The notes under the pieces were generated by a model. It was not told the origin of the DNA and did no database searches. It saw only the letters and a program-made list of their open reading frames with translations. A program made the translations under genes and the position numbers. This document shows, in pieces, positions 1 to 20,812 of a DNA stretch of 43,304 bases. Within the stretch, counting starts at the first letter, position 1, and every line of letters starts with the position of its first letter. Origin of the DNA: Escherichia albertii NBRC 107761 = DSM 17582 (GTDB lineage: Bacteria; Pseudomonadota; Gammaproteobacteria; Enterobacterales; Enterobacteriaceae); assembly GCF_000759775.1 (NCBI RefSeq), contig NZ_BBMY01000030.1:1-43304 (forward strand), read 5' to 3'.

Positions 1-33
1 ATCTGTGTGGTAAGGGAATCACCTTTTATTTAC

Positions 34-53
34 TGTGCGGAAAACCGCGCACA
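34..53 (+). promoter_or_regulatory. Palindromic DctD/KguR-type activator site
   Basis: TGTGCG and CGCACA half-sites are separated by 8 bases (GAAAACCG). The site lies about 90-105 bases upstream of the start predicted from the sigma-54 promoter at 114-129. This is the usual position for an NtrC-family enhancer site, and the half-sites resemble rhizobial DctD sites. Binding by the KguR encoded at 2743-4101 is inferred. Confidence 0.6.
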
Positions 54-113
54 AAATAAAAAGAATAAATAATAAAATCATTAAATAACAAAGTGTTATT
101 AAAAAATTAAAGA

Positions 114-129
114 TGGCATAGCTCCTGCA
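114..129 (+). promoter_or_regulatory. Sigma-54 (-24/-12) promoter of the transporter operon
   Basis: TGGCATAGCTCCTGCA has the invariant GG (115-116) and GC (127-128) exactly 12 bases apart, as in the TGGCA-N7-TGC consensus. Transcription should start near 140, leaving a leader of about 30 bases before the ATG at 170. An AT-rich stretch (54-113) separates it from the activator palindrome and could allow bending. Confidence 0.75.
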
Positions 130-169: not shown

Positions 170-1669
170 ATGTCATCAATATCTAACGACGCGCCACAAA
201 AGCGCCGAATTATTCCTAACCCCGGCTTGTGGTTGGCGATCATTGCCGGAATTATTATTACCCTTCTGCCGTTAGGCGATACATTGCCCGTCGCTGGACA
301 AAATATGATCGCCATTCTGGTGTTCGCCATTATTGTCTGGATCAGCGAAGCGATGGATTACACCGCCAGTGCAATTGTGATTTCCGCACTGATTATCTTT
401 ATGGTTGGCTTTGCCCCGGATATGAATCACCCGGAAACTATTCTCGGCACCGCGAAAGCGCTGAAAATGACTCTGTCGGGTTTTTCTAATTCTGCTCTGG
501 CGCTGGTGGCAGCAGCAATGTTTATCGCGGCGGCAATGACCATTACCGGGCTGGATAAACGCATTGCGCTGTTTACTATGTCGAAAATAGGTGCCAGCAG
601 CCGCAGCATTATTATCGGTGCCATTGTGGTGACCATCGTCCTGAGCCTGGTCGTACCCAGTGCCACTGCCCGTACGGCTTGCGTGGTGCCGATTATGATG
701 GGGGTCATTGCGGCATTTAAGGTGGATAAACATTCACGTTTAGCGGCGTCAATGATGATTGTTATCGCCCAGGCGACCAGTATCTGGAACGTTGGTATTC
801 AAACTTCGGCGGCGCAAAACCTGCTTTCTATCGGTTTTATCAATAAAACTTTCGGCGCCGGGCATTCTGTTAGTTGGCTGGATTGGCTGTTAGCGGGCGC
901 CCCCTGGAGCCTCGCTATGTCGGTTATCCTCTATTTTCTCGCACGTAAATTATTGCCACCCGAAACAGAAGCCGTTGAAGGCGGTAGCGAAGCCATTAAA
1001 AAAGCACTTGCAGAGTTAGGGCCAACTACCGGGAAAGAGAAACGCCTGATCGGTATTTCGCTGCTGCTGCTGTTCTTTTGGTCTACGGGCGGAAAATTAC
1101 ACAGCATTGATACCACCTCTGTCACCCTTGCCGGACTGGCGATTATGCTGCTGCCGGGGATTGGCGTTATGAGCTGGAAAGACGTTGAAAAACGTGTGCA
1201 GTGGGGAACGTTGCTGATGTTTGGTATTGGTATCAGCCTGGGGTCCACGCTGCTTGATACGCAGGCAACTTCATGGATGGCGAACTATGTGGTGAAAGGT
1301 TTTGGTCTCGACGGCTTGCCATCATTAGCCATCTTCGCGATTCTCGCCGCTTTTTTAATCATCATTCACCTGGGCTTTGCCAGCGCTACTGCGCTAACGG
1401 CTGCATTGCTGCCTATCCTGATTAGCCTGTTAAGTAGTCTGCCGCCTGAACTCGGTGTTAACCCGGTCGGTATGACTATTTTGCTGGCTTTCAGTGTTAG
1501 TTTCGGCTTCATTCTGCCGATTAATGCGCCACAAAATATGGTCTGCATGGGCACGGATACCTTCACGCCGCGCCAGTTTACCCGTGTCGGGCTGTACCTG
1601 ACGGTGATTGGCTACCTGTTGTTACTGTTGTTTGCCGCCACCTGGTGGAAAATTTTAGGTCTGATGTGA
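170..1669 (+). CDS. DASS-family (SLC13-like) di/tricarboxylate transporter
   Basis: A 499-residue inner-membrane protein of the divalent anion:Na+ symporter family, which imports or exchanges C4/C5 di- and tricarboxylates. About a dozen hydrophobic segments are visible. The two pseudo-symmetric substrate/sodium motifs are recognisable: FSNSALALVAAAMF followed by VPSATART in the first half, and LGFASATALTAALLP followed by INAPQN in the second. I chose ATG 170 because GAGG (161-164) sits five bases upstream; the in-frame GTG at 164 would overlap that site. The dehydrogenase gene starts 11 bases after the stop, so the two are co-transcribed, probably from the sigma-54 promoter at 114-129. The exact substrate cannot be read from sequence. 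The linked KguS/KguR system suggests 2-oxoglutarate, malate or a related hydroxy acid. It resembles YbhI/TtdT-type transporters. Confidence 0.88.
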   Translation: MSSISNDAPQKRRIIPNPGLWLAIIAGIIITLLPLGDTLPVAGQNMIAILVFAIIVWISEAMDYTASAIVISALIIFMVGFAPDMNHPETILGTAKALKMTLSGFSNSALALVAAAMFIAAAMTITGLDKRIALFTMSKIGASSRSIIIGAIVVTIVLSLVVPSATARTACVVPIMMGVIAAFKVDKHSRLAASMMIVIAQATSIWNVGIQTSAAQNLLSIGFINKTFGAGHSVSWLDWLLAGAPWSLAMSVILYFLARKLLPPETEAVEGGSEAIKKALAELGPTTGKEKRLIGISLLLLFFWSTGGKLHSIDTTSVTLAGLAIMLLPGIGVMSWKDVEKRVQWGTLLMFGIGISLGSTLLDTQATSWMANYVVKGFGLDGLPSLAIFAILAAFLIIIHLGFASATALTAALLPILISLLSSLPPELGVNPVGMTILLAFSVSFGFILPINAPQNMVCMGTDTFTPRQFTRVGLYLTVIGYLLLLLFAATWWKILGLM

Positions 1670-1680: not shown

Positions 1681-2754
1681 ATGTCATTACAAATTGCCGT
1701 GGAAAAAGTGCGTTGGTTAGCTGCCGGGCTGCTGGAACTTAATGGCTGTGATGCCGATATCGCTCAGGATGTGGCGGAACATATGATTGAAGCGGAACGT
1801 TATGGCTTTGCCAGCCACGGCGTCACGCTGCTACCGAAGTATCTGGAAAATATCGCGCGTGGCGATGTAACCGCGAATGCCCGCCCGGAATGCTTAACAA
1901 GTGAAGGTAATTTACAGCGTTTTCATGCCCACAATGGCTTTGGTCAACATGCGGGAAAAGTGGCGGTAAATGCTGCCATTGAACAAGCAAAACACCGCGG
2001 TTTTTGCCTGTTAACGTTGTGCCATGCGCATCATTTAGGGCGTATGGGGCATTACGGGCAAATGGTTGCTGATCAAGGCCTGGCGATGCTGGCCATGAGT
2101 AACGTCACCGGGCGTCCGGCACTGGTCGCCCCGTGGGGCGGTGCAGAACCGCGTATGACCACTAACCCTTTCTGTTTTGCCTGGCCGTTCAGTGATGGGC
2201 GTCCGCCGATTCTGGTCGATTTTGCCACCAGTAGCATGGCGCTAAATAAAGCACGGGTAATGTCGTCCGCCGGAAAGCAGGCTGCGCCGGGACAATTGAT
2301 CGATGCACAGGGAAATCCGAGTATCGATCCTGGAGTGCTATTCAGCAATCCGCCAGGTGCGTTATTGCCCTTTGGTGAGCATAAAGGATTTGGCCTGGCG
2401 CTGATGATTGAGATGATGGCGGGGATCTTATCTGGTGGCGACACGATCGCCGAAGATCACCAGGCGGATGGATCGGCACATAATCATCTTTTTGCTTTGG
2501 TGCTCGATCCTGATCAATTTACCGATCTGGCGGGGGAGAAAGGGCAGTTCTTTGCGGATTATCTATTAGCCACGCAGCCTCAGCCGGGCGGTCATCCGGT
2601 GATTTACCCCGGGATGCCGGAAGCGGCTAATAGGGAACGCAATGCGACAATGATTACGATCCCGGTGTCATTCTGGTCCTGGGTGGTTGAGCATTACGCC
2701 CGTAAAGGCATCGATCTGGGCCTGCATACACAAAAATCCGCATTAGCTGGATGA
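1681..2754 (+). CDS. YbiC-like (Ldh2/MDH2 family) NAD(P)-dependent hydroxycarboxylate dehydrogenase
   Basis: A 357-residue cytoplasmic oxidoreductase of the malate/L-lactate dehydrogenase 2 family, which interconverts 2-hydroxy and 2-oxo acids with NAD(P) and is unrelated to Rossmann-type LDH. Family signs are SHG at residues 45-47, the His-rich loop CHAHHLGRMGHY (114-125), TNPF (161-164) and EHKGFGLALMIE (233-244). The pattern is closest to E. coli YbiC (HcxB) in loop spacing and in the EHKG...SGG segment. ATG 1681 has a GAGG site from 1669; a longer reading from 1645 would run back into the transporter gene. Paired with the transporter, it probably oxidises the imported hydroxy acid or reduces the imported oxo acid. 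Its last 12 bases overlap the convergent kguR gene. Substrate is unknown. Confidence 0.85.
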   Translation: MSLQIAVEKVRWLAAGLLELNGCDADIAQDVAEHMIEAERYGFASHGVTLLPKYLENIARGDVTANARPECLTSEGNLQRFHAHNGFGQHAGKVAVNAAIEQAKHRGFCLLTLCHAHHLGRMGHYGQMVADQGLAMLAMSNVTGRPALVAPWGGAEPRMTTNPFCFAWPFSDGRPPILVDFATSSMALNKARVMSSAGKQAAPGQLIDAQGNPSIDPGVLFSNPPGALLPFGEHKGFGLALMIEMMAGILSGGDTIAEDHQADGSAHNHLFALVLDPDQFTDLAGEKGQFFADYLLATQPQPGGHPVIYPGMPEAANRERNATMITIPVSFWSWVVEHYARKGIDLGLHTQKSALAG

Positions 2755-4101
2755 TTCCAGACGATAAACCTGCGGCTGAATTTGATGCTTGTTGAGCTTG
2801 TCGTATAACGTCTTGCGCGGCAGTTGTAATAGCCGCGCAGTCAAACTGACCTGGCCTTCTGTTTGCCGTAGCATATCTTCGATTAACTTTTTCTCGAATG
2901 CGTCAAGGCAGGCGGTAAGGCCGCTTTCTTCTTGCTGTGTCATCGGTACTGGCTGATGCTGAGTCAGTAAACCGAGCACGAAGCGTTCAGCGTTATGTTT
3001 GAGTTCACGTACATTTCCAGGCCAGCTTTGTGATTGTAGCCAGGCCAGCAACATCGGAGAAATATCGGGTAGGGGGCGATTGTATTTTTGCGCCGCCTGA
3101 CTGGCGAACCAGTAAAATAGCTCAGGAATATCTTCTCGCCGCTGACGAAGAGGGGGAATATTCAGACTGACTACATTCAGACGATAATAGAGATCGAGGC
3201 GAAACAGATGCTCTTCACTGCGACGTAGTAAATCTTCTTTAGTGGCGGCGATGACACGACAATTAACGGGAATTAATTGATTGGCGCCTAATCTTTCGAT
3301 GCTTCTTTCCTGCAGCACACGTAGCAGTTTGACCTGCATACCTGATGGCATCCCCTCTATTTCATCGAGAAATAATGTGCCGCCATTCGCATGTTCTATT
3401 TTACCGATACGTTTTTTGACCGCCCCGGTAAATGCCCCCGCTTCATGCCCAAATATTTCACTTTCAAAAAGCGTTTCGGGTAATCCTGCGCAGTTTAAAG
3501 CAACAAACTGCCCCTGACGACGAGTGCTCCAGTGATGCAACATTCTGGCGACAACTTCTTTGCCACAGCCTGTTTCACCGTAAATAAGCACATCGGCATC
3601 GGTATCTGCAACGTTGAGGATCATCTTTCTCAGTTGCTGTATTTGTGGGCTGCGACCAATCAGTACCGGACCATTTTCCTGTTGCAGATTCACCAGTAAC
3701 TGTTGATTCTCTAAAATCAGTCGTCGTTTTTCCACTGCTCTGGCAATAATGCTAAGTAATTTATCTGAACTGCTGGGTTTCTCAATAAAATCAAATGCCC
3801 CATTGCGCATTGCTTCAACGGCCATTTCTACGTCACAGTGCCCGGTAATTAAAATAACTGGAATTTTGTTATCCATCTCACTGATGTAATTGAGTAGCTC
3901 CAGTCCCGATATTCCGGGGAGTCTGACATCAGTTAGTACAATAATATTCTGCAGACTTTGAATCAAAGGGAGACTGTGTTCCGCATCGCAACAGGAAATG
4001 ACACGATAACCCGCTAACGTAAGTGTTTGTTCACAGGCAAAACGAACATCGTCGCTGTCTTCAATATAAATAATTGTAATTTCATCAGGCTTATTTTCCA
4101 T
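2743..4101 (-). CDS. kguR: NtrC/DctD-family sigma-54 response regulator KguR
   Basis: A 452-residue activator with three domains. The receiver domain (about 8-120) has the acidic pocket in EDSDD, phospho-acceptor Asp58 in LTDVRLPG and Lys108 in FIEKPS. The AAA+ domain (about 145-375) has Walker A GETGCGKE (175-182), the sigma-54 contact loop GAFTGA (222-227) and Walker [11 protein letters not shown] (241-250). A C-terminal Fis-type helix-turn-helix spans about 405-447. It overlaps the end of kguS by 11 bases, so the pair is translationally coupled. The intact GAFTGA motif fits the sigma-54 promoter found at 114-129. I assign the symbol because the locus (DctBD-like pair beside aphA with an organic-acid module) matches my memory of the uropathogenic E. 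coli 2-oxoglutarate utilisation regulator. By sequence alone it is a DctD homologue. Confidence 0.87.
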
Positions 4102-5914
4102 GATCTTCTCTCCATTCTGGCCAGGTTAATGTCATCACCGCGCCGCCTTCAGGATGATTACTGGCGTGGAGAGTACCGTTCGAATTACGGACAATTTCGC
4201 TGACGATCGCCAACCCCAGTCCCATTCCTCTGCGTTTAGTGGTAAAAAAAGGTTCAAATATGCGATCGATAACTTGCGGAGCAAACCCGGCGCCACTGTC
4301 TTTAATTGTAATAATGACCTTGTTATCGGTCTGGCGGATAGCGATATCCAGTCTTTTATAAGAACACCCTTCCATAGAGTCTAAAGCGTTGCTAATTAAA
4401 TTACTGAATATCTGCTCAAGGCCGAGTTCATCGCAATTCACAAATAGCGGCATGGAGGCGGCTTTAATTCGTCTCTCAACATTATTTTTCTCCATACTGT
4501 GATTTAGCAATGACACGGCGCTATACATCACTTTGATGACATCGGCAGATCCTTTTGGTACACGGTGACGCGAAGCAAATGCTTTAAGTTCAGAGATGAG
4601 CTGTGTCATTCGCTCAATCACTGAAATAATGTGCTTCAGATTCTGTTCAACCTGTGGATACATCTCTTTTTTCAGCATAATACGTGCATTATCGGTGAGT
4701 GCATGAATAGCCGCTAATGGTTGATTTTGCTCATGAGCAATTTCGGTCGCCATTTGCCCGAGCGCAGCCAGTTTGCTGGATTCTGCCAGTTCACTACGCG
4801 TGATTTGCAACACTTGCTCGGCCTGGCTACGTTCTTTTATCTCCTGCAGTAATTTTTGATTGATCAATTCCAGCGCCGAGGTGCGTTCTTTCACCTGTTT
4901 TTCTAAAGTCTCATTGGCCTGTGTTAATAATTGTTGTGCATGAGAGCGTATTCGCCAGTATTTAATAAATAATAGAAATAGCAAATAGATAATTAATGTG
5001 ACGACCAGAGAAATAGCCCATGACAAGTATAGATTATCTAAGGGCGCCATAATCGTCATTTTCCAGTTAAACTCTGGGATGGCAATTTGCTGTGTATAAT
5101 ATTTAGGGAATAAGCAAAATTGTTCTTTCTTTTCTTTTAAGAAAAGAAAATTGTTTAAAGTGTAACAAGGATAGTAATCGGCAGGCAGCAGGTTATCGAG
5201 GCTGTACTGACGTGTAGATTGTAGCTTTTGTTTTGCCTGTATAGGTAATGGTTGCAGGGTACGCATTCGCCAGAGAGATTTTGAACTTAAAAATATAATC
5301 CCGTGTTCATCATTGACGATAATGTTTTCAGGTCCTTCAGACCAGGCCTTTTCAATTTCATTAAGACTTATTTTAACGACCACTACACCAATGACTTTCC
5401 CTTTATCTTTAATACTGGTTGAGAGAAAAAATCCCGGTGTGTTTGTGGTGCTGCCAATACCGTAAAAACGGCCATTTAAACCAGCCATTGCCTGTTTATA
5501 ATAAGGACGGTAACTATAGTTTTGCCCTACATAGCTGCCGGGGGCCTGCCAGTTGCTGGAAGCGATAGCCTTTCCTTGCGTATCAAGAATAAATATTGCT
5601 GCAGTTTTGAGTTGTGTATTGAAATGCGCAATTCGCTGATTAAGTTCGCTGGACGTCATGTCTGATGGGGCAATAACGGCCTGACGGATGATATGATCTG
5701 TTGAGAGCATATAGGGTAAAACATAAAATTGTTCAATGGTGGAATATAATGTGGACTTATACATCTCAAGCCGCATTTTATCGGTAGCGGATAACGTAAT
5801 AAAACGAAAGTGCAAAAAGATGATTGAAACGGCGAAACTGAACAGTAAAAGAGAAATACTTGTAATATGAAATCGCCATTTGTTCTTAAATATATAAGCA
5901 CATGGTATTTTCAT
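4091..5914 (-). CDS. kguS: DctB-family membrane sensor histidine kinase KguS
   Basis: A 607-residue sensor. A first membrane helix (about 17-38) and a second (about 297-318) bracket a periplasmic PDC-type sensor domain that carries the DctB-like segments SYRPYYKQAMAG (134-145) and GFFLSTSI (161-168), typical of dicarboxylate-binding PDC domains. A coiled-coil linker (about 325-380) leads to the dimerisation/phosphorylation helix with His394 in IAHEQNQPLAA. The C-terminal ATPase domain has N box NLISNALDSME, DSGAGF and FTTKRRGMGLGLAIV. Two periplasmic cysteines (C250, C267) could form a disulfide. It lies upstream of kguR on the same strand and overlaps it. It should sense an external C4/C5 carboxylate and phosphorylate KguR Asp58. 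The symbol rests on locus similarity to the uropathogenic KguSR system. Confidence 0.85.
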   Translation of the reverse strand: MKIPCAYIFKNKWRFHITSISLLLFSFAVSIIFLHFRFITLSATDKMRLEMYKSTLYSTIEQFYVLPYMLSTDHIIRQAVIAPSDMTSSELNQRIAHFNTQLKTAAIFILDTQGKAIASSNWQAPGSYVGQNYSYRPYYKQAMAGLNGRFYGIGSTTNTPGFFLSTSIKDKGKVIGVVVVKISLNEIEKAWSEGPENIIVNDEHGIIFLSSKSLWRMRTLQPLPIQAKQKLQSTRQYSLDNLLPADYYPCYTLNNFLFLKEKKEQFCLFPKYYTQQIAIPEFNWKMTIMAPLDNLYLSWAISLVVTLIIYLLFLLFIKYWRIRSHAQQLLTQANETLEKQVKERTSALELINQKLLQEIKERSQAEQVLQITRSELAESSKLAALGQMATEIAHEQNQPLAAIHALTDNARIMLKKEMYPQVEQNLKHIISVIERMTQLISELKAFASRHRVPKGSADVIKVMYSAVSLLNHSMEKNNVERRIKAASMPLFVNCDELGLEQIFSNLISNALDSMEGCSYKRLDIAIRQTDNKVIITIKDSGAGFAPQVIDRIFEPFFTTKRRGMGLGLAIVSEIVRNSNGTLHASNHPEGGAVMTLTWPEWREDHGK

Positions 5915-6026
5915 TCATCATCCATTGAATGTATTTATATTTATCTTCAGTATATTCCCTGAACAAGGCTTGCGAGAACCAAAAGAGTGTCATTGTGTGA
6001 ATGTGTAAGCAGAATAGCGGCACCGA

Positions 6027-6044
6027 TGTGCGGTTTATCGCACA
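6027..6044. promoter_or_regulatory. Second TGTGCG-N6-CGCACA palindrome, between kguS and aphA
   Basis: A perfect inverted repeat, TGTGCG-GTTTAT-CGCACA, with the same half-sites as the palindrome at 34-53. It lies 113 bases upstream of the kguS start and 148 upstream of aphA. I found no correctly spaced GG-N10-GC sigma-54 promoter on either strand nearby. It may mediate autoregulation of kguSR by KguR or affect aphA; this is inference. Confidence 0.55.
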
Positions 6045-6167
6045 GGTATTCCAAATGTGATCGTGCTCTTTTTCTGTAACAAAGCCGCAGATAATCCTTC
6101 CTTTCCCCTACAACTGGCGTTATGGTCAGATGGTTTTTTCAACAGATCTCACAATAAAACGTTTTAA

Positions 6168-6905
<738 letters not shown>

Positions 6906-7015
6906 TAGAGTGAGAAAGTGTTAGTTTCTCTCTGGTGCTGTTTTTTTAATCACACCTTTATCCTTTTACTATCTTGCTGCAAACTGATTAAGAGAGTTTT
7001 ATCAAGGAGCAGCAT

Positions 7016-7432
7016 ATGTGGTATCAAAAGACGCTCACGCTTAGTGCCAAATCTCGTGGATTTCATCTGGTAACGGATGAAATCCTGAATCAACTGGCTG
7101 ATATGCCGCGTGTTAACGTCGGTTTACTACACCTGTTGTTGCAACATACCTCCGCCTCTCTGACACTCAATGAGAATTGTGACCCCACTGTACGCTATGA
7201 CATGGAGCGTTTTTTCCTCCGCGCGGTTCCCGATAACGGAAACTATGAGCATGACTATGAAGGGGCAGACGATATGCCTTCTCATATTAAATCCTCAATG
7301 CTGGGGGTATCGCTCGTATTGCCAGTACATAAAGGGCGTATTCAGACCGGCACCTGGCAGGGTATCTGGCTGGGGGAACATCGCATCCACGGCGGATCGC
7401 GTCGCATCATCGCGACACTACAAGGGGAGTAA
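7016..7432 (+). CDS. yjbQ: UPF0047/YjbQ family protein
   Basis: A 138-residue cytoplasmic protein of the secondary thiamine-phosphate synthase YjbQ family. Members form a compact beta-rich trimer, and some replace thiamine-phosphate synthase weakly; the physiological role is not settled. Conserved family segments are [36 protein letters not shown] and [12 protein letters not shown], whose His residues are the likely metal or anion ligands. An AAGGAGCAGC ribosome site precedes ATG 7016. The stop is followed three bases later by yjbR, so the two form an operon. About 110 bases separate it from aphA, with a weak GAGAAA/TTTCTC inverted repeat at 6911-6932. Confidence 0.95.
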
Positions 7433-7435
7433 AAA

Positions 7436-7792
7436 ATGACCATTTCGGAGTTGCTACAATATTGCATGGCAAAACCAGGCGCAGAACAGAGTGTGCATAG
7501 TGACTGGAAAGCAACGCAGATCAAAGTTGAAGATGTCCTTTTTGCAATGGTGAAAGAGGTAGAAGGGCGCCCGGCCGTTTCTCTGAAAACCAGCCCGGCG
7601 CTGGCGGAATTATTGCGTCAGCAGCACAGCGATGTGCGTCCCAGTCGGCACCTGAATAAAGCGCACTGGAGCACCGTTTATCTCGACGGCTCGTTGCCTG
7701 ATTCGCAAATTTATTATCTGGTGGATGCGTCTTATCAGCAGGCAGTGAATTTGCTGCCGGAAGAGAAACGTAAGCTGTTGGTGCAACTCTGA
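7436..7792 (+). CDS. yjbR: MmcQ/YjbR family protein
   Basis: A 118-residue protein of the MmcQ/YjbR (CyaY-like fold) family, in which a DNA-binding function has been suggested from structure. Recognisable features are the N-terminal helix with CMAKPGAEQSV, the strand VLFAMVKEVEGRPAVSLKTSP, and SRHLNKAHWSTVYLDGSLPDS followed by the terminal helix LVDASYQQAVNLLPEEKRK. A GGGGAG site, part of the yjbQ end, precedes ATG 7436, so translation is likely coupled to yjbQ. It converges on uvrA. The GC-rich hairpin at 7799-7819 just past its stop is its probable terminator. Function is not established. Confidence 0.94.
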   Translation: MTISELLQYCMAKPGAEQSVHSDWKATQIKVEDVLFAMVKEVEGRPAVSLKTSPALAELLRQQHSDVRPSRHLNKAHWSTVYLDGSLPDSQIYYLVDASYQQAVNLLPEEKRKLLVQL

Positions 7793-7798
7793 AGATAA

Positions 7799-7819
7799 AG
7801 GCCGCTCAGAAAGCGGCCT
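7799..7819. terminator. Terminator hairpin, copy 1, after yjbR
   Basis: AGGCCGCT-CAGAA-AGCGGCCT makes a perfect 8-bp GC-rich stem seven bases after the yjbR stop. No long U tract follows. An identical 21-base copy occurs at 7971-7991 next to the uvrA stop, and the REP-type element at 7828-7962 lies between them. Confidence 0.7.
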
Positions 7820-7827
7820 GAGAATGA

Positions 7828-7962
7828 TGACAAACGCAAAATGGCCTGATGCGCTACGCTTATCAGGCCTGCGTGATCTCTGCAATATATTGAAACTGCA
7901 TGTTTTTGTAGGCTGGATAAGGCGTTCACACCGCATCCGGCAAGGACAAAGCGAACTTGTCA
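7828..7962. repeat. REP/BIME-type composite repeat, copy A
   Basis: Two REP palindromes (about 7843-7870 and 7911-7942) flank a spacer containing CTCTGCAATATATTGAAACT. The whole 135-base unit recurs in opposite orientation at 11709-11847 with only scattered differences by eye. It lies between the convergent yjbR and uvrA genes, between two identical hairpins. Confidence 0.85.
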
Positions 7963-7970
7963 ATAATCAG

Positions 7971-7991
7971 AGGCCGCTCAGAAAGCGGCCT
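7971..7991. terminator. Terminator hairpin, copy 2, after uvrA
   Basis: Exact 21-base duplicate of the hairpin at 7799-7819 (8-bp stem, CAGAA loop), ending six bases from the uvrA stop codon. It probably terminates uvrA transcripts. The direct duplication around the repeat element is unusual. Confidence 0.7.
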
Positions 7992-7997
7992 TAGCGA

Positions 7998-10820
7998 CTA
8001 CAGCAGTGGCTTGAGGAAGCGCGCTGTATGTGAAGCTTCGCACTCTGCGACAGTTTCTGGCGTGCCGGAGACGAGGATCTCGCCGCCGCCGCTACCACCT
8101 TCCGGTCCCAGGTCGACAATCCAGTCAGCGGTTTTAATCACGTCGAGGTTGTGCTCAATTACCACAATGGTGTTGCCCTGATCGCGCAGTTTATGCAGTA
8201 CGTCGAGCAGCTGCTGAATATCGGCAAAGTGCAGGCCGGTGGTTGGCTCGTCGAGAATATACAGCGTCTGCCCGGTGCCGCGTTTTGACAGCTCACGCGC
8301 CAGCTTCACACGCTGGGCTTCACCGCCGGAAAGTGTGGTGGCGGACTGACCCAGACGAATGTACGTCAGGCCAACATCTATCAGCGTTTGCAGTTTACGC
8401 GCCAGCGCCGGAACGGCATCAAAGAACTCACGCGCCTCTTCGATGGTCATATCCAGCACTTCGTGGATGGTTTTACCTTTGTACTTAATCTCCAGCGTTT
8501 CGCGGTTATAGCGTTTACCTTTGCACTGGTCGCACGGTACGTAAATATCCGGCAGGAAGTGCATCTCCACTTTGATTACGCCATCGCCCTGGCAGGCTTC
8601 ACAGCGTCCACCACGGACGTTAAAGCTGAAACGTCCGGGCGTATAACCGCGCGCACGGGATTCCGGTACGCCAGCGAACAGTTCACGCACGGGCGTAAAT
8701 ACGCCGGTATAGGTCGCCGGGTTAGAACGCGGAGTTCGACCAATCGGGCTTTGGTCGATATCGATCACTTTATCGAAATGCTCCAGCCCCTGAATATCGC
8801 GATACGGTGCTGGTTCCGCGATGGTTGCGCCATTCAACTGGCGTTGCGCTATCGGGAACAGTGTGTCGTTAATCAGCGTGGATTTACCGGAACCAGAAAC
8901 CCCGGTGATGCAGGTGAACAGGCCGACCGGCAGCGTTAACGTCACGTCTTTCAGGTTGTTGCCGCGCGCGCCCGTCAGTTTTAGCACTTTTTCTGGATTC
9001 GCAGGTACGCGTTTCTTCGGCACTTCAATCTTGCGTTTACCGCTCATGTACTGCCCGGTCAATGACTCCGGCACAGCCATAATCGCTTCCAGCGGACCTT
9101 CCGCGACCACTTCACCGCCGTGAACACCCGCGCCCGGGCCGATGTCGATCACATGGTCAGCCGCGCGAATGGCGTCTTCGTCGTGCTCCACCACAATTAC
9201 GGTATTACCGAGATCGCGCAGGTGGATAAGCGTTCCCAACAGACGTTCGTTATCGCGCTGATGCAAGCCGATGGAGGGTTCATCCAGAACATACATAACG
9301 CCAACAAGGCCTGCGCCAATCTGGCTCGCCAGACGGATACGCTGGGCTTCGCCGCCGGAAAGTGTTTCTGCCGAGCGGGAAAGAGTCAGGTAATTCAGCC
9401 CGACGTTAACGAGGAATTTCAGGCGATCGCCAATCTCTTTAAGGATTTTTTCCGCAATTTTCGCTCGCTGGCCGGCGAGTTTGAGATTGTTGAAGAACTC
9501 CATCGCATGACCGATGCTCATATCGGAGATAGCGGGCAGCGGTGTATTCTCGACATAGACGTGGCGCGCTTCACGACGCAGACGCGTCCCTTCGCAACTG
9601 GCGCATGGACGATTGCTGATAAATTTGGCCAACTCTTCGCGTACCGCGCTGGATTCCGTCTCTTTATAACGGCGCTCCATATTGTGCAGCACGCCTTCGA
9701 ACGGATGACGACGGATAGAGGTATCGCCACGATCGTTCATGTACTTGAATTCGATATTTTCTTTGCCGGAACCGTACAGCACCACTTTTTGCACGTTCGC
9801 GCTCAGGCTGCCCCACGGCGCTTCGACGTCGAATTTATAGTGATCTGCCAGTGATTTCAGCATCTGGAAGTAGTAGAAATTACGCCGATCCCAGCCGCGG
9901 ATCGCGCCGCCTGCCAGCGACAGCTCAGGGTTTTGGATCACACGATCGGGATCGAAATATTGCTGTACGCCAAGACCGTCACAGGTCGGGCAGGCGCCCG
10001 CCGGATTGTTAAACGAGAACAGACGCGGTTCCAGTTCGCGCATACTGTAGCCGCAGATCGGGCAGGCGAAATTCGCGGAAAACAGCAGCTCTTCCGCTTT
10101 CGGGTCGTCCATATCGGCGACGACCGCCGTGCCGCCGGAAAGCTCCAGCGCAGTTTCAAACGACTCCGCCAGACGCTGGGTAAGATCGTCACGCACTTTG
10201 AAGCGATCAACCACGACTTCAATAGTGTGTTTCTTTTGCAGTTCCAGTTTTGGCGGATCGGAAAGATCGCAGACTTCGCCGTCAATGCGCGCGCGGATAT
10301 ACCCCTGACTAGCCAGATTCTCCAGCGTTTTGGTGTGTTCGCCTTTGCGCTCTTTAATGATTGGCGCAAGCAGCATCAGACGTTTACCTTCCGGCTGCGA
10401 CAGCACGTTGTCCACCATCTGGCTGACGGTTTGCGCCGCCAGCGGAACATCGTGGTCCGGGCAGCGCGGCTCGCCGACGCGGGCGTACAGCAGTCGCAAA
10501 TAGTCGTGGATTTCGGTGATTGTCCCCACCGTGGAGCGCGGGTTATGAGACGTCGATTTCTGTTCAATTGAGATGGCGGGTGAAAGCCCCTCAATATGAT
10601 CGACGTCCGGCTTTTCCATCAGTGACAGAAACTGCCGCGCATAGGCAGAAAGGGATTCAACGTAACGACGCTGCCCTTCGGCATATAAGGTGTCGAAAGC
10701 GAGCGAGGATTTGCCAGAACCCGAAAGCCCGGTCACGACAATCAGTTTGTCGCGGGGGATAACGAGGTTGATATTTTTGAGATTATGGGTGCGGGCGCCC
10801 CGAACTTCGATCTTATCCAT
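7998..10820 (-). CDS. uvrA: Excinuclease ABC subunit UvrA
   Basis: A 940-residue damage-recognition ATPase of nucleotide excision repair; a UvrA dimer with UvrB scans DNA and loads UvrB at lesions. The tandem ABC arrangement is complete. Walker A1 is [14 protein letters not shown] near residue 31, followed by zinc module CPICGY...CPTCDG, signature [12 protein letters not shown] and Walker [11 protein letters not shown]. In the second half are Walker A2 [13 protein letters not shown], zinc module CEACQG...CDQCKG, signature [12 protein letters not shown] and [10 protein letters not shown]. Full length matches E. coli UvrA. ATG 10820 is preceded by AAAGGTGA. It is transcribed divergently from ssb, and the LexA box at 10904-10923 makes it SOS-inducible. 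Confidence 0.98.
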
Positions 10821-10903
10821 TCACCTTTCCCGGATTAAACACTTTCTTGCCCGGCGGCATGGCGCTACCGGCGGTCACAAACGGTTAATTATGACACAAA
10901 TTG

Positions 10904-10923
10904 ACCTGAATGAATATACAGTA
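10904..10923. promoter_or_regulatory. LexA (SOS) box shared by uvrA and ssb
   Basis: CTG-N10-CAG at 10906-10921 (CTGAATGAATATACAG) within an AT-rich 20-base site. Read on the minus strand it begins TACTGTATATTC, an excellent LexA operator. It lies 84 bases upstream of uvrA and about 150 upstream of ssb. Control of uvrA is established in E. coli; ssb is affected through its distal promoter. Confidence 0.92.
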
Positions 10924-11071
10924 TTGGAATGCAAAACCCACAATACAGTGTAACAATGTCGGGCCATGTTTGTTTACCGGAACCGAGGCCACATCGTGGT
11001 AAAAGCGCTATTGGTAATGGTACAATCGCGCGTTTACACTTATTAGAACGTTTTTTTCAGGAGACACGAAC

Positions 11072-11608
11072 ATGGCCAGCAGAGGCGTAAACAAGGTTAT
11101 TCTCGTTGGTAATCTGGGTCAGGACCCGGAAGTACGCTACATGCCAAATGGTGGCGCAGTTGCCAACATTACGCTGGCTACTTCCGAATCCTGGCGTGAT
11201 AAAGCGACCGGCGAGATGAAAGAGCAGACTGAATGGCACCGTGTTGTGCTGTTTGGCAAACTGGCTGAAGTGGCCAGCGAATATCTGCGCAAAGGTTCCC
11301 AGGTTTATATCGAAGGTCAGCTGCGTACCCGCAAATGGACCGACCAATCCGGCCAGGATCGCTACACGACAGAAGTTGTCGTAAACGTCGGCGGCACTAT
11401 GCAGATGTTGGGGGGGCGTCAGAGTGGTGGCGCTCCGGCTGGCGGCAATATCGGTGGCGGTCAGCCGCAGGGTGGTTGGGGTCAGCCTCAGCAGCCGCAG
11501 GGTGGCAATCAGTTCAGCGGCGGCGCGCAGTCTCGTCCGCAGCAGTCCGCTCCGGCAGCGCCGTCTAACGAACCGCCGATGGACTTTGATGACGATATCC
11601 CGTTCTGA
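11072..11608 (+). CDS. ssb: Single-stranded DNA-binding protein SSB
   Basis: A 178-residue tetrameric ssDNA-binding protein that protects exposed single strands and recruits replication and repair enzymes. The OB fold covers residues 1-110 ([45 protein letters not shown]). A Gly/Gln/Pro-rich disordered linker follows (about 113-168). The acidic tip MDFDDDIPF, which docks RecO, PriA, ExoI and other partners, is intact. A CAGGAG site precedes ATG 11072. It is divergent from uvrA. The sequence is nearly identical to K-12 SSB; the linker has RQSGGAP where I recall RQGGGAP. A hairpin at 11675-11699 downstream is the probable terminator. Confidence 0.98.
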
Positions 11609-11674
11609 TTTGCCATTAAGAAAACAGGTTATGTTTTCTTAAGGCGGGCAATTAAAGCGCCGTCAACCATAAAA

Positions 11675-11699
11675 AGAAGCCTCCTTTGCGGAGGCTTCT
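11675..11699. terminator. Hairpin downstream of ssb
   Basis: AGAAGCCTCC-TTTGC-GGAGGCTTCT is a perfect 10-bp stem 66 bases after the ssb stop. It is followed by only a short T-rich stretch. A degenerate relative lies at 11852-11879, so the repeat element at 11709-11847 again sits between a pair of hairpins. Confidence 0.65.
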
Positions 11700-11708
11700 C
11701 AGATTTGC

Positions 11709-11847
11709 TGACAAAGTGCGATTTGTTCATGCCGGATGCGGCGTGAACGCCTTATCCAGCCAACAAAAACATGCAGTTTCAATATATTGCAGAGATTGTG
11801 TAGGCCTGATAAGCGCAGCGCATCAGGCTATTTTGCGTTTGTTATCA
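11709..11847. repeat. REP/BIME-type composite repeat, copy B (inverted)
   Basis: Inverted counterpart of the element at 7828-7962. Its reverse complement starts TGATAACAAACGCAAAATAG and contains the same spacer (CTCTGCAATATATTGAAACT) and both REP palindromes. It occupies the space between ssb and the end of yjcB. The two copies are about 3.9 kb apart and bracket uvrA-ssb. Confidence 0.85.
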
Positions 11848-11851
11848 GTCC

Positions 11852-11879
11852 CAGAAGCTTCTCTTTGCGGAGACTTCTG
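11852..11879. terminator. Degenerate hairpin downstream of yjcB
   Basis: CAGAAG...CTTCTG arms surround an inner CTTTGCGG segment, echoing the hairpin at 11675-11699 imperfectly. It lies five bases beyond the yjcB stop, which is read on the minus strand, and could terminate yjcB or stabilise its 3' end. Confidence 0.45.
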
Positions 11880-11883
11880 TTTA

Positions 11884-12165
11884 TCAGGTCAAAATCATCG
11901 GCCACTGTGGTGGCGCCTGATTCATTCCTTCCACCATCACGGACTCAATATTGCTCCAGATGGCGGTAATGTCCGCCATTGTGATGCCAAGCAATCCCAT
12001 CGCGAACCAACAGGCGGAAACGACCCCCAGACCACTGCTGATTACTGCAAGCCCGATGTAATCAGAGCGACGAAAACGAATGTTGAGCGTACTGGCCAGA
12101 AACATCAGTACGGCGCTAAGAAGTTGCCAGCGGAGAAGAACCACGCCAGTGGTGAGGGTAGCCAT
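11884..12165 (-). CDS. yjcB: Small inner-membrane protein YjcB
   Basis: A 93-residue protein with two to three hydrophobic helices (GVVLLRWQLLSAVLMFLAS, YIGLAVISSGLGVVSACWF, then MGLLGITMADITAIW) and no recognised enzymatic motif. Its sequence and length match E. coli YjcB, whose function is unknown. I set the start at ATG 12165, where AGAGGAA lies about seven bases upstream. A longer in-frame reading to 12264 adds an N-terminus with no hydrophobic or conserved character. It stands alone between copy B of the repeat element and the long pdeC leader region. A CRP-like site lies 131 bases upstream of its start. Confidence 0.85.
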   Translation of the reverse strand: MATLTTGVVLLRWQLLSAVLMFLASTLNIRFRRSDYIGLAVISSGLGVVSACWFAMGLLGITMADITAIWSNIESVMVEGMNQAPPQWPMILT

Positions 12166-12295
12166 CGAAAAATTCCTCTGAAAATAGCCGATGCTCTGGA
12201 CAGCGCGACGTTGCTCACTGGAGGCGTGGTACACTCTGGCTATCGTGGGGCTTGCAGAACACAAAAATGAAACGCTAAATCTGTTTCATTATTTT

Positions 12296-12311
12296 TGTGA
12301 ACTATATCACA
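12296..12311. promoter_or_regulatory. Consensus CRP-type site between yjcB and pdeC
   Basis: TGTGA-ACTATA-TCACA matches the symmetric cAMP-CRP core TGTGA-N6-TCACA at all ten positions. It lies in the 447-base non-coding gap 12166-12612, 131 bases from the yjcB start and about 300 from pdeC. No other convincing element was found in this gap, except an AT-rich possible promoter near 12520-12545. Confidence 0.6.
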
Positions 12312-12612
12312 CTTGATTGTTTGTTAGCCAGATTACGCCATCGCTTTTATTTCTGTACTTATTATGTGGTTTTTCAGTGGCATTGAAGGAACGCCAAATA
12401 ACAAAATGTTGTAACTTCCTGCCTTTTTTCTCTTTTTCAGGAAAGCTCTTTTGATATCAGCGAGTTATTTTTATTAGAACAACAATCATAAAGGTATCAA
12501 TTTCAAATCAGGCAAAAGTGCTATTTATACCGTAAGATTTATCTAACGTCGTCGGTAGTCAGGGTTTTCACCTTGCAATGACCAGATATAACCAGGCAGG
12601 GAATGAATAGAA

Positions 12613-14199
12613 ATGAGTCATAGCGCACGACACAAATTGCTGGCGTTGCCGGGCATTGTCTTTGTAGTACTTCTTCCCATCATTCTGTCGCTATGGATTG
12701 CTTTTCTTTGGGCGAAATCAGAAGTTAATAGTCAGCTTCGTACCTTTGCGCAGTTGGCGCTGGATAAATCCGAGTTGGTTATTCAACAGGCAGATTTGGC
12801 GAGCGATGAGGCGGAGCGTTATCAGGGACACGTTTGTACTCCCGCCCATCAAAAGCGAATGTTGAATATTATTCGCAATTATCTTTATATCAATGAACTG
12901 ATATATGCCCATGATAATCATTTTTTATGCTCATCGCTTATGGCCCCTGCTAACGGCTATATGATTGCACCTGCAGATTATAAGCGTGCTCCCAATGTTT
13001 CTATTTATTATTACCGTGATACGCTCTTTTTTTCAGGTTATAAAATGACCTATATGCAGCGGGGAAATTATGTGGCAGTTATCAACCCTCTATTCTGGAG
13101 CGAGGTGATGTCTGACGATCCAACGCTGCAATGGGGCGTGTATGATACGGTAACGAATGCTTTTTTCTCGTTAAGTAAATTGGCTTCGACAGAAACATTT
13201 TCACCTCTGATTCATCAGAATGAGTTAACTCTGGAGCGGAACGGTTACTTATATGCAATAGCCCATTCAACAAAACGTCCGATTGCCGCCATTGTTGCCA
13301 CCTCAAAACAGCGTCTTCTCTCCCATTTTTATAACCATCTTATCTTTGCTTTACCCGCAGGTATTTTGGGGAGTCTTGTACTGTTATTGCTCTGGTTGCG
13401 TATAAGCCAGGAGTACCGCTCTCCCAAACGAAAATTACAGCGCGCACTCGAAAAACGGCAACTCTGTCTTTATTACCAACCCATTATCGACATTAAAACA
13501 GAAAAATGTATTGGCGCCGAAGCGTTGTTGCGGTGGCCCGGAAATCAGGGACAGGTGATGAACCCGGCAGAGTTTATTCCTCTGGCGGAAAAAGAAGGAA
13601 TGATTGAACAGGTGACTGATTATGTCATTGATAACGTATTCAGTGAGCTGGGCGCGTATCTGGCAACCTATGCCGATCGCTATATTTCCATTAACTTGTC
13701 GGCTTCCGATTTTCATACTTCACGTGTGATTGCGCGAACCAATCAAAAAACAGAGCAATACGCGGTGCGCCCACAGCAAATTAAATTTGAAGTGACGGAA
13801 CATGTGTTTCTTGATGTCACCAAAATGACGCCGATTATTCAGGCCTTCCGCCAGGCGGGTTATGAAGTGGCAATTGATGACTTTGGCATTGGTTACTCCA
13901 ACCTACATAACCTTAAATCATTGAATATCGATATTTTAAAAATCGATAAATCGTTTGTTGAGACGCTGACTACCCACAAAACCAGCCATTTAATTGCGGA
14001 ACATATTATTGAACTGGCACATACTCTGGGGCTAAAAACGATCGCAGAAGGGGTAGAAACTGAGGAGCAGGTTAACTGGTTGCGTAAACGTGGCGTGCGC
14101 TATTGCCAGGGCTGGTTCTTTGCAAAAGCGATGCCGCCGCAGGTATTTATGGCATGGGCGGAGCAAGTACCCGCGCGCGAGTTAACGCGCGGGCAGTGA
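12613..14199 (+). CDS. pdeC: CSS-EAL cyclic-di-GMP phosphodiesterase PdeC
   Basis: A 528-residue inner-membrane enzyme that hydrolyses c-di-GMP to pGpG and so opposes biofilm matrix production. Membrane helices at about 11-33 and 242-264 bracket a periplasmic CSS domain with Cys75 and Cys106 (the latter in CSS). In the E. coli homologue these form a DsbA-dependent disulfide that restrains activity. The cytoplasmic EAL domain (about 270-515) keeps [33 protein letters not shown] and KIDKSFV, so it should be catalytically active. ATG 12613 follows a weak AGGGAATG site. It converges on soxS with two bases between stop codons. Formerly yjcC. Confidence 0.95.
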
Positions 14200-14201
14200 A
14201 A

Positions 14202-14525
14202 CTACAGGCGATGGCGATAATCGCTGGGGGTGCGATCAAACTGCCGACGGAAAACGCGAGAAAAGGTCTGCTGCGAGACATAACCCAGATCCATCGCGAT
14301 ATCAAAAATAGGGCGCTCGGTGGTGCGCAACTCGACGGCGGCCAGCAACAGGCGGCGTTGACGAATGTAATCGCCAAGCGTTTGATGCGTCACCGCGCGG
14401 AACATCCGCTGCAAGTACCACTTTGAATAGCCTGATTTTTTCGCGACGATGTCAATGTTCAGCGGCTGGTCGATATGTTCGTCAATCCATGCAATAAGAT
14501 CCTGAATAATTTTCTGATGGGACAT
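14202..14525 (-). CDS. soxS: Superoxide-response AraC-family activator SoxS
   Basis: A 107-residue monomeric AraC/XylS activator that consists of the two helix-turn-helix subdomains only, with no effector domain. It switches on the superoxide and redox-drug regulon (sodA, zwf, fumC, micF, acrAB). Visible motifs are IDIVAKKSGYSKWYLQRMF (first HTH) and IFDIAMDLGYVSQQTFSRVFRRQF (second HTH). The protein appears identical to the K-12 one. An AGAGG site precedes ATG 14525. Its only input is SoxR, bound between the -35 and -10 elements of the soxS promoter at 14573-14603. Activity is limited by rapid turnover in known strains. Confidence 0.98.
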   Translation of the reverse strand: MSHQKIIQDLIAWIDEHIDQPLNIDIVAKKSGYSKWYLQRMFRAVTHQTLGDYIRQRRLLLAAVELRTTERPIFDIAMDLGYVSQQTFSRVFRRQFDRTPSDYRHRL

Positions 14526-14572
14526 AAATCTGCCTCTTTTCAGTGTTCAGTTCGTTAATTCATCTGTCGGGG

Positions 14573-14603
14573 AGTATAATTCCTCAAGTTAACTTGAGGT
14601 AAA
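14573..14603 (-). promoter_or_regulatory. soxS promoter with SoxR operator
   Basis: Read on the minus strand: -35 TTTACC, a 19-base spacer and -10 TATACT. The spacer carries the perfect 18-base palindrome CCTCAAGTTAACTTGAGG (14582-14599). The over-long 19-base spacer is the hallmark of MerR-family activation, in which oxidised SoxR distorts DNA to realign the elements. The same site overlaps the soxR promoter region. Confidence 0.92.
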
Positions 14604-14610
14604 GCGATTT

Positions 14611-15075
14611 ATGGAAAAGAAATTACCCCGCATTAAAGCCTTGCTCACCCCAGGCGAAGTTGCGAAACGCAGTGGTGTGGCGGTATCGACGCTGCATTTT
14701 TATGAGAGCAAAGGTCTGATTAGCAGTATCCGTAACAGCGGCAATCAGCGGCGATATAAGCGTGATGTGCTGCGATATGTTGCAATCATCAAGATAGCTC
14801 AACGCATTGGCATTCCACTGGCGACTATTGGCGAGGCGTTCGGCGTATTACCTGAAGGGCATACCTTGAGCGCAAAAGAGTGGAAACAACTTTCGTCGCA
14901 ATGGCGAGAAGAGCTGGATCGCCGCATACACACCCTGGTGGCGCTGCGTGATGAACTGGATGGTTGTATTGGTTGCGGCTGCCTTTCACGCAGTGACTGC
15001 CCGTTGCGTAACCCTGGCGACCGTTTAGGAGAGGAAGGAACAGGCGCGCGTTTGTTGGAAGACGAGCAAAACTAA
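14611..15075 (+). CDS. soxR: Redox-sensing MerR-family activator SoxR
   Basis: A 154-residue dimeric sensor of redox-cycling compounds. The winged HTH (about 12-80; [20 protein letters not shown]) binds the palindrome at 14582-14599. A dimerisation helix leads to the [2Fe-2S] ligands C119, C122, C124 and C130 in [12 protein letters not shown], all present. Oxidation of the cluster activates soxS. Compared with K-12 as I remember it, residues 27 (Thr for Ala) and 38 (Ser for Thr) differ. T38S is a common natural variant; residue 27 lies in the DNA-binding domain. The stop codon is part of the terminator stem at 15072-15096, and the 3' end is overlapped by the antisense SraL RNA. Confidence 0.98.
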
Positions 15076-15203
15076 AGCGCCGCAAGGGCGCTTTAGTTTG
15101 TTTCCGGTCTTTGTCTTTCTCTCTATCCCGCTGGTACACGGGAGGGTTTCCCCCGACGTCAACACACCTCATTCGAGCACGTGGTGGAGGTTCCGGTTTG
15201 TGT
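15068..15203 (-). ncRNA. sraL: SraL (RyjA) small RNA, antisense to the soxR 3' end
   Basis: In E. coli and Salmonella a stationary-phase, RpoS-linked sRNA of about 140 nt is encoded here opposite the soxR terminus and pairs with trans targets such as tig mRNA. On the minus strand the hairpin CTAAAGCGCC...GGCGCTTTAG followed by TTTT ends at 15068. A candidate extended -10, TAGTATATC, lies at about 15205-15213, giving a transcript of roughly 135 nt. The 5' end is approximate. Identification is by position and terminator. Confidence 0.65.
15072..15096. terminator. Bidirectional terminator of soxR and SraL
   Basis: CTAAAGCGCC-GCAAG-GGCGCTTTAG forms a perfect 10-bp stem. On the plus strand it includes the soxR stop codon (15073-15075) and is followed by TTTG. 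On the minus strand it is followed by TTTT and serves as the intrinsic terminator of SraL. Confidence 0.85.
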
Positions 15204-15347
15204 CGATATACTAATTGTATGTCACCCTTGTTTCTTCGCCAGTGCAAAGCGGTGCTTTTTAGCCGCAATGTTTTTGCCCTCTTGCGCGATTTTTTGCTGC
15301 AACTCTTCGCCACAAAACGTCTGTAAATGCCGTCATTTTGCGCACTG

Positions 15348-15363
15348 ACGATAACGTTTGCGC
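15348..15363. promoter_or_regulatory. PurR-like operator 1 upstream of ghxQ
   Basis: ACGATAACGTTTGCGC matches the purine repressor operator ACGCAAACGTTTGCGT at 13 of 16 positions, including the central CG and AACGTTTGCG. It is 257 bases upstream of ghxQ. Weaker AACGTTTGC-type repeats follow at 15451-15462 and 15490-15505. Confidence 0.5.
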
Positions 15364-15489
15364 ATCAATTGCCTGGTTTTTCATCGTTAATACAAGAAAA
15401 GGGAAAAAAGCAACAAACTTTGGTTGAAAAAGCCGCTATGATCGCCGGATAATCGTTTGCTTTTTTTACCACCCGTTTTGTATGCGCGG

Positions 15490-15505
15490 AGCTAAACGTT
15501 TGCTT
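15490..15505. promoter_or_regulatory. PurR-like operator 2 upstream of ghxQ
   Basis: AGCTAAACGTTTGCTT matches the PurR operator at 12 of 16 positions and sits 115 bases upstream of ghxQ, nearer to where a promoter would be. Purine-repressor control of ghxQ fits its role in hypoxanthine/guanine uptake. The rest of the gap 15204-15619 holds no credible gene. Confidence 0.5.
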
Positions 15506-15619
15506 TTTTGCGACGCCCCAGATTGTCGCAAACCTGAAGCAGGAAGATAACGTTTTGCTGGCAGGGGATTGTCCGCCACGCATCTTGACGAAAAATAAAC
15601 TCTCAGGGGATGTTTTCTT

Positions 15620-16969
15620 ATGTCTACGCCATCAGCGCGTACCGGCGGTTCTCTCGACGCCTGGTTTAAAATTTCACAACGTGGAAGCACTGTCCGTCAG
15701 GAAGTGGTTGCCGGGTTAACAACATTTCTGGCGATGGTCTATTCGGTTATCGTTGTTCCGGGCATGTTGGGTAAGGCGGGTTTCCCGCCAGCAGCGGTTT
15801 TCGTAGCGACCTGTCTGGTCGCCGGACTGGGTTCTATCGCAATGGGGCTGTGGGCCAATCTGCCGTTGGCAATCGGCTGCGCCATCTCCCTGACCGCATT
15901 TACGGCATTCAGCCTGGTATTGGGACAACATATTAGCGTTCCGGTTGCGCTGGGCGCCGTATTTTTGATGGGCGTGCTGTTTACGGTCATCTCGGCAACG
16001 GGCATCCGTAGCTGGATCTTACGCAACCTGCCACATGGCGTGGCGCACGGTACAGGGATTGGTATCGGCCTGTTCCTGCTGCTGATTGCCGCCAATGGCG
16101 TTGGCCTGGTGATTAAAAACCCGCTTGATGGTCTGCCCGTCGCGCTGGGTGATTTCACGACTTTCCCGGTGATGATGTCGCTGGTCGGCCTGGCGGTGAT
16201 CATCGGACTGGAAAAACTGAAAGTGCCTGGTGGTATTCTGTTGACCATTATCGGTATCTCGATTGTTGGTCTGATCTTCGATCCTAATGTCCACTTCTCC
16301 GGCATTTTCGCCATGCCTTCATTGAGCGACGAAAACGGCAATTCGCTGATTGGTAGCCTGGATATTATGGGCGCGCTGAATCCGGTAGTCCTGCCAAGCG
16401 TGCTGGCGCTGGTGATGACGGCGGTTTTTGATGCTACCGGGACTATCCGTGCGGTAGCCGGGCAGGCTAACTTGCTGGATAAAGATGGGCAAATCATCGA
16501 CGGCGGGAAAGCACTGACCACTGACTCTATGAGCAGCATCTTCTCTGGTCTGGTGGGGGCAGCTCCGGCAGCGGTATACATCGAGTCTGCGGCGGGTACG
16601 GCGGCGGGCGGTAAAACCGGTTTGACGGCTATCACCGTTGGCGTGCTGTTCCTGCTGATTCTGTTCCTCTCTCCGCTCTCTTATCTCGTTCCGGGGTACG
16701 CAACGGCTCCGGCGCTGATGTACGTTGGCCTGCTGATGCTGAGCAACGTGGCGAAAATCGACTTTGCTGATTTTGTCGATGCGATGGCGGGACTGGTCAC
16801 GGCGGTGTTCATTGTCCTGACCTGTAACATCGTGACTGGCATCATGATTGGTTTCGCAACTCTGGTGATTGGTCGTCTGGTTTCCGGCGAATGGCGTAAG
16901 TTGAACATCGGTACGGTCGTCATCGCCGTGGCACTGGTGGCCTTCTACGCAGGGGGGGGGGCTATCTGA
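15620..16969 (+). CDS. ghxQ: Guanine/hypoxanthine:H+ symporter GhxQ
   Basis: A 449-residue inner-membrane permease of the AzgA-like NCS2 family, importing guanine and hypoxanthine with protons. It has about 13-14 hydrophobic segments and the family motifs [19 protein letters not shown] near the N-terminus, [30 protein letters not shown] and [21 protein letters not shown] site lies nine bases before ATG 15620. The coding sequence ends in a run of ten G residues (16952-16961) encoding most of AGGGAI, so replication slippage there would alter the last residues and the stop. PurR-like operators lie upstream. The terminator at 16987-17015 separates it from yjcE. Formerly yjcD. Confidence 0.94.
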
Positions 16970-16986
16970 TTTTTAATATGATTCTG

Positions 16987-18769: not shown

Positions 18770-18806
18770 GCCGAAAGCGACGTGACTTTGCCCGACTTAA
18801 TCTGAA

Positions 18807-18851: not shown

Positions 18852-20812
<1,961 letters not shown>

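Follow-up and report, generated by a model that had tools for sequence, protein, structure and literature searches.

The DNA analysed here (hereafter, the window) is a stretch of 43,304 nucleotides that makes up an entire contig, C206, of a 4.42-Mb genome, and the KguS/KguR island on it is that of an Escherichia lineage close to E. coli. The uvrA gene of the window is 99.5% like that of one record, 14EC007, which bears the label E. coli; the next on the list reaches 92.8%, and all others fall in the 90 to 95% band, so the window genome belongs to an Escherichia lineage that stands beside E. coli proper. Contig C145 of this genome holds the other, upstream half of the island (tyrB, odhA, odhB, lpdA, and sucCD). 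The gene order is that of the CFT073 island, with tyrB and aphA flanking both, and the region upstream of the transporter gene is present in 1037 of 5426 complete E. coli genomes. Around the transporter, we distinguish the following features:

Positions 4 to 21, plus strand: probable KguR site 1, TGTGTGGTAAGGGAATCA, upstream member of a tandem pair, recognised by conservation and a genome-unique spacing.
Positions 34 to 51, plus strand: KguR site 2, core 18-mer TGTGCGGAAAACCGCGCA, backed by published EMSA and site deletion; in print as 34-53, TGTGCG-N8-CGCACA.
Positions 86 to 98, plus strand: possible, weak IHF site TAACAAAGTGTTA, one mismatch to WATCARNNNNTTR.
Positions 114 to 129, plus strand: sigma-54 -24/-12 element TGGCATAGCTCCTGCA, GG-N10-GC, backed by sequence, conservation, and published RpoN dependence and binding.
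Position 140, plus strand: start of transcription, G in the window; in CFT073, it was published as A at -30.
Positions 170 to 1669, plus strand: DASS-family transporter, ortholog of c5038, ATG at 170.
Positions 1681 to 2754, plus strand: Ldh_2-family dehydrogenase, ortholog of c5039, start taken from the L009 annotation.
Positions 2743 to 4101, minus strand: KguR, ortholog of c5040, sigma-54 activator with GAFTGA at residues 222-227.
Positions 4091 to 5914, minus strand: KguS sensor kinase, ortholog of c5041, with a dCache sensor and H-box His394.

The initial annotation had credited the linked regulator with an intact GAFTGA motif, and the protein bears this out. KguR is an intact protein of 452 amino acids with D58, GETGCGKE at 175, and GAFTGA at 222, and it combines a receiver domain (PF00072), a sigma-54 activator domain (PF00158; AAA+, with Walker A and B), and a Fis-type HTH (PF02954), which marks it as a bEBP. 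KguS is an open frame of 607 amino acids with its dCache sensor. As annotated, the picture differs in 14EC007 (L009, positions 4975-19681), the nearest sequenced relative: there, a stop codon interrupts kguR, an IS1 divides kguS, and an odhA-like gene and aphA are both frameshifted. The island seems to be undergoing decay in L009, and the broken kguR together with the IS1 in kguS indicates that the KguS/KguR system can decay within the lineage.

Conservation was assessed over ten promoters: that of the window and those of L009, G297, G295, G094, G207, G281, G134, G087, and G002, three of which share one genus. CFT073 (L048) was compared apart and stands outside all counts of ten. Counts for kguS cover eight genomes, with G295 and G297 left out as their stretches end before kguS; column counts were made without L009, i.e., over nine rows for DASS and odhA and seven for kguS. 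Of 295 family genomes, 12 encode a KguR relative (E up to 1e-120), and the promoter region was found in 2 of 11 other members of the genus. Six KguR relatives besides that of the window are 73 to 90% identical and keep the order odhA-odhB-lpdA-sucCD-DASS-Ldh with kguRS. Five further genomes with KguR-like proteins of 48 to 49% were left out of the comparison; in the stretches of three of these five, no matches to the transporter, odh, or suc genes were found. We built a KguR matrix on 17 sites (8 distinct), each a DASS site 2 or a kguS site A, and these positions score high by construction; the kguS site of G002 was missed by the pattern and left out. The fractions quoted for matrix and consensus matches are those of first-order Markov samples that equal the match.

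A promoter had been placed ahead of the DASS transporter by the initial annotation, and the open reading frame indeed begins with the ATG at 170, downstream of the -24/-12 element. The description of that element as "textbook" was slightly generous: GG and GC are present with 10 bp between them, and the element has one mismatch to TGGCAYRNNNNTTGCW and, by reading, three to TGGCACGNNNNTTGCA. Taken alone, its sequence proves little. The pattern TGGYAYRN5TGCA has two matches in the window for 0.25 expected, a number reached by 4 of 100 shuffles, and across the genome it barely exceeds its reversed control (24 versus 19); a stricter sigma-54 consensus with two mismatches allowed gave 382 genome-wide matches versus 399 for its control, i.e., no enrichment. 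The case for the -24/-12 element must therefore rest on context and conservation. The second match in the window is the following:

Positions 40034-40049, minus strand: second sigma-54-like element TGGCATAAAAGATGCA, about 50 bp before the open reading frame 37835-39982 on the minus strand.

This open reading frame reads as a formate dehydrogenase, its TGA read through as Sec140, and we take it to be fdhF, a classic sigma-54 gene controlled by sigma-54 and FhlA. The match thus serves as an internal positive control for the pattern.

The GG at -24 and the GC at -12 are kept at their 10-bp distance in all ten orthologous promoters, and, by genome, the sigma-54 consensus match in the DASS upstream stretch is equalled by 0 to 1.5% of first-order Markov samples. 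Over the nine aligned sequences without L009, 11 of the 16 columns of the element are invariant, versus 40 of 138 other upstream columns. Upon ranking the 16-mers of this alignment, the -24/-12 element came out as the most conserved and the KguR site as the second.

The transcription start had been expected at 140. This is exactly the published c5038 start, as the A at -30 that was mapped in CFT073 by 5' RACE corresponds to position 140 of the window. All ten DASS promoters have a purine at -30; in G002, where the -12 and the ATG are one base further apart, counting from the -12 would lead to a C. A hairpin at 132-144 followed by a T tract (a feature of 132-148 that spans the start) was considered as an attenuator or operon terminator and rejected: it is weak (z 0.28), and its stem bases C136 and G140 are both A in CFT073. 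Since it begins upstream of the published start, its 5' arm would be absent from the sigma-54 transcript.

Upstream of the element, the palindrome and the AT-rich spacer of the initial annotation are both present, the former as TGTGCGGAAAACCGCGCACA at 34-53. Its extent requires revision, for the conserved right half-site stops at 51 rather than 53. The 20-bp form TGTGYG-N8-CRCRCA occurs in only 2 of the 10 promoters, whereas an 18-bp TGTG..CA unit occurs in 10/10, which makes the 18-mer at 34-51 the better recognition unit. The alignment of the ten DASS promoters displays three blocks, namely, the -24/-12 element, the published KguR site, and, another 30 bp upstream, site 1. The starts of sites 1 and 2 are exactly 30 bp apart in every one of the ten, and site 1 retains TGTGYG and the final CA throughout. 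The matrix gives site 1 a modest score (shuffle fractions 0.01-0.09, with a position 2 bp further along scoring higher in G087), and its right half is weak in most genomes, while G087 and G002 have TGCGCC-N4-GGCGCA palindromes there. Across the whole genome, the spaced motif TGTGYGG-N23-TGTGYGG has a single match, at window positions 4-40, and its reversed control has none. Allowing two mismatches gave two window matches versus 1.38 expected, which is no enrichment, so that only the exact form is distinctive. Activator sites upstream of sigma-54 promoters often come in pairs. From these alignments, the transporter enhancer is probably the tandem pair 4-21 and 34-51, and the span 34-129, which had been called complete, would then not be the whole unit, as the probable second KguR site falls outside it.

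Between the enhancer and the promoter, where sigma-54 promoters commonly but not universally have an IHF site, the candidate IHF site at 86-98 was judged against WATCARNNNNTTR, which we take to be the IHF consensus. The aligned place has at most one mismatch in 9 of the 10 promoters, is perfect in G087 and G002, and is missing in L009, a count that concerns AT-rich DNA and was made without a shuffle control. Two other one-mismatch matches lie near 86-98 in the window. The odhA spacer holds perfect matches in G094, G207, G281, and G134 and none in the other six genomes, likewise without a shuffle control. These patterns suggest an IHF site at 86-98 that is plausible but weak; neither "IHF" nor "integration host" occurs in the available text of PMC3694859, PMC5318444, and PMC8716947.

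The promoter as such is already known, having been mapped in E. coli from 2013 to 2021. According to the available parts of these papers, TGTGCG-N8-CGCACA was named as a potential KguR site of c5038, KguR shifts the c5038 and c5032 promoter fragments, and the induction of c5038 by ketoglutarate depends on KguR (PMC3694859). The -24/-12 motif was recognised together with the mapped start, complementation rescues the rpoN deletion, and RpoN shifts the c5038 promoter (PMC5318444), while deletion of the site abolishes KguR binding at both c5038 and kguS (PMC8716947). The main checks that the initial annotation had proposed are thus in print for CFT073 c5038: besides the mapped start, in an rpoN deletion, the ketoglutarate induction is abolished (PMC5318444), and upon loss of kguR, expression drops to background (PMC3694859). 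As for the proposed DNase footprint, the word "footprint" is absent from the available text of PMC3694859 and occurs in that of PMC5318444 only as the name of a program. The c5038 EMSA probe of 2013 begins at -163, which is window position 7 and thus inside site 1 (PMC3694859). This probe could not have shown site 1, and as it was shifted by KguR, site 2 is sufficient for binding in vitro.

The sister operon, which begins with odhA (c5032), has an architecture that resembles that of the transporter promoter, a likeness that we count as support. Its element in the window genome is the following:

Contig C145 (G000), positions 7518-7533, minus strand: odhA -24/-12 element (TGGTAYG..TGCA), conserved in 10/10 genomes.

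The T of this element lies at -51 in eight genomes, at -55 in G087, and at -67 in G002. Judged by the consensus score only, it falls short of significance (fractions 0.045-0.155 of first-order Markov samples), and the case for it therefore rests on conservation: 12 of its 16 columns are invariant versus 41 of 269 elsewhere (nine rows, L009 dropped). Apart from this element, the best-kept 16-mer in the odhA alignment, with 10 of 16 columns, is the same KguR-type site that gives the best matrix match, located at -122 in 8 of 10 genomes, at -166 in G087, and at -176 in G002 (fractions 0.00-0.07). In 10/10, this best match is paired with a second TGT-unit at a distance of 31 bp; the partner scores poorly (0.52-0.70 where listed, and outside the top four in G297, G087, and G002), and both members score well only in G134. 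From sequence comparison, two KguR-type sites at this distance likely precede odhA.

The c5032 site in print, TGTGTG-N13-CGCGCA (the available part of PMC3694859), falls within the tyrB coding sequence, and it occurs in CFT073 and in one of the ten genomes (G295). We rejected it as a general c5032 enhancer, because it is found in 1/10 although tyrB precedes odhA in 8/10. The 2013 probe for c5032, from -272 to +32, covers the tyrB site and the intergenic pair alike (PMC3694859). The data suggest that the c5032 enhancer shifts from tyrB to the conserved intergenic pair, and c5032 is predicted to need RpoN. The available text of PMC3694859, PMC5318444, and PMC8716947 holds no statement on sigma-54 control of c5032, "RpoN" occurring in PMC5318444 only and for c5038; in a review that mentions KguS, RpoN occurs only in the title of a reference.

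The promoter of kguSR itself has the following features:

Positions 6027 to 6044, minus strand: KguR site of the kguS promoter, TGTGCGATAAACCGCACA, with published EMSA; the site or its aligned counterpart is found in 8/8 genomes.
Positions 5996 to 6013, minus strand: possible, weak second KguR-type site, TCTGCTTACACATTCACA, 31 bp from the first.
Positions 5949 to 5954, minus strand: TATACT, sigma-70-like -10 of kguSR, at -40 to -35 from the ATG; ATATA[C/A]T in 8/8.

Downstream of the KguR sites, no GG-N10-GC was found in any of the eight kguS promoters, and their best sigma-54 consensus match was no better than shuffles (fractions 0.32-1.0). The most conserved kguS 8-mers are these two blocks and the ATATA(C/A)T at about -40. 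The second block, T(C/G)TG-N10-CACA, occurs in all eight promoters; the matrix prefers its register +33 in 7/8 (fractions 0.12-0.43), while register +31 is among the top four in 4/8 (0.38-0.45), and G134 has neither. If ATATA(C/A)T is a sigma-70 -10, then transcription would start near -28, and -93 and -62 would be the approximate centres of the blocks. No full sigma-70 promoter emerged from a consensus scan at kguS, which could fit activator dependence. FNR is a sigma-70 activator. PMC5318444, in its available part, cites Barbieri et al. 2014 for a direct action of FNR on kguSR expression, which fits a sigma-70-like kguSR promoter.

KguR raises kguSR expression (PMC8716947, available part), and this poses the question by what means a GAFTGA activator raises its own promoter where the -24/-12 is lacking. 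The second block might serve another regulator, and the KguR effect on kguSR could possibly arise indirectly. Tentatively, and with less than even confidence, we propose that GAFTGA-intact KguR serves two polymerases: it would act through paired sites on the sigma-54 promoters of c5032 and c5038, with the intergenic pair rather than the tyrB site as the true c5032 enhancer, and directly from about -93 and -62 on a sigma-70 promoter of kguSR.

Taken together, the reading in the initial annotation is essentially right: the window promoter, which serves the ketoglutarate transporter operon (c5038-c5039), almost certainly depends on sigma-54 and is activated by KguR. As a mechanism, we propose that KguS would sense ketoglutarate or a linked state and phosphorylate KguR, which would then occupy the site at 34-51 and probably also the tandem site at 4-21. 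The AT-rich spacer would loop, perhaps with the help of IHF at about 86-98, and the GAFTGA loop of KguR would drive open-complex formation by sigma-54 RNA polymerase at 114-129, with the start at 140. We infer the looping, the role of IHF, the use of both sites, and that the window copy behaves as that of CFT073.

It is very improbable that the transporter is instead read from a sigma-70 promoter in the AT-rich stretch, the -24/-12 being a chance match. Such a reading can draw on the near-background frequency of the pattern in the genome and on the promoter regions that the 2013 paper predicted with BProm (PMC3694859, available part). However, a scan of the plus strand of positions 1-200 gave no sigma-70 consensus match, the -24/-12 element surpasses even the KguR site in conservation, and for CFT073, the loss of induction upon rpoN deletion and the binding of RpoN refute it (PMC5318444, available part). 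Just as slight is the chance that the operon is mostly read through from the upstream sucCD, with its own promoter being minor. The end of sucD lies 211 bp before the transporter ATG on the same strand in L009 and CFT073, but L009 has a terminator-like GGGAGC..GCTCCC-T7 after sucD; moreover, prediction and RT-PCR divide the CFT073 region into two operons (PMC3694859), and 5' RACE places a start at -30 (PMC5318444), both per the available text.

A somewhat larger, though still low, probability attaches to the idea that site 1 at 4-21 is unused or belongs to another regulator, e.g., FNR or ArcA. Deletions of fnr and arcA lower c5038 expression (PMC5318444, available part), the right half of the site is weak in most genomes, and a probe beginning within it was still shifted by KguR (PMC3694859). 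Set against this are the invariant TGTGYG and CA at a spacing of exactly 30 bp, the palindromes at site 1 in G087 and G002, and the like pairing at odhA, 31 bp apart; furthermore, the c5038 probe was not shifted by ArcA, and the effect of FNR is described as running via kguSR (PMC5318444, available part).

The locus, which has been tied in print to urinary-tract fitness, offers a compact model for how sigma-54 governs the use of carbon sources. To the published picture, our analysis adds a probable tandem enhancer, an 18-bp recognition unit, a second, predicted sigma-54 promoter with a moved enhancer, and a kguS promoter lacking a -24/-12.

Among known systems, the CFT073 c5038-c5039 promoter is the closest, sharing the island position between tyrB and aphA, the KguR site, the -24/-12, and the start position. 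It differs from the window in 4 of 175 bases (at 15, 94, 136, and 140), including the start base, which is A in CFT073 and G in the window, whereas the half-sites of sites 1 and 2 and the -24/-12 are identical. The fdhF promoter of the same window is alike in its -24/-12 pattern TGGCATAAAAGATGCA and differs in that it presumably uses FhlA sites, not KguR. The ketoglutarate transporter PA5530 of Pseudomonas aeruginosa resembles the operon in being controlled by a sigma-54 activator (MifR) and RpoN (as cited in the available part of PMC5318444).
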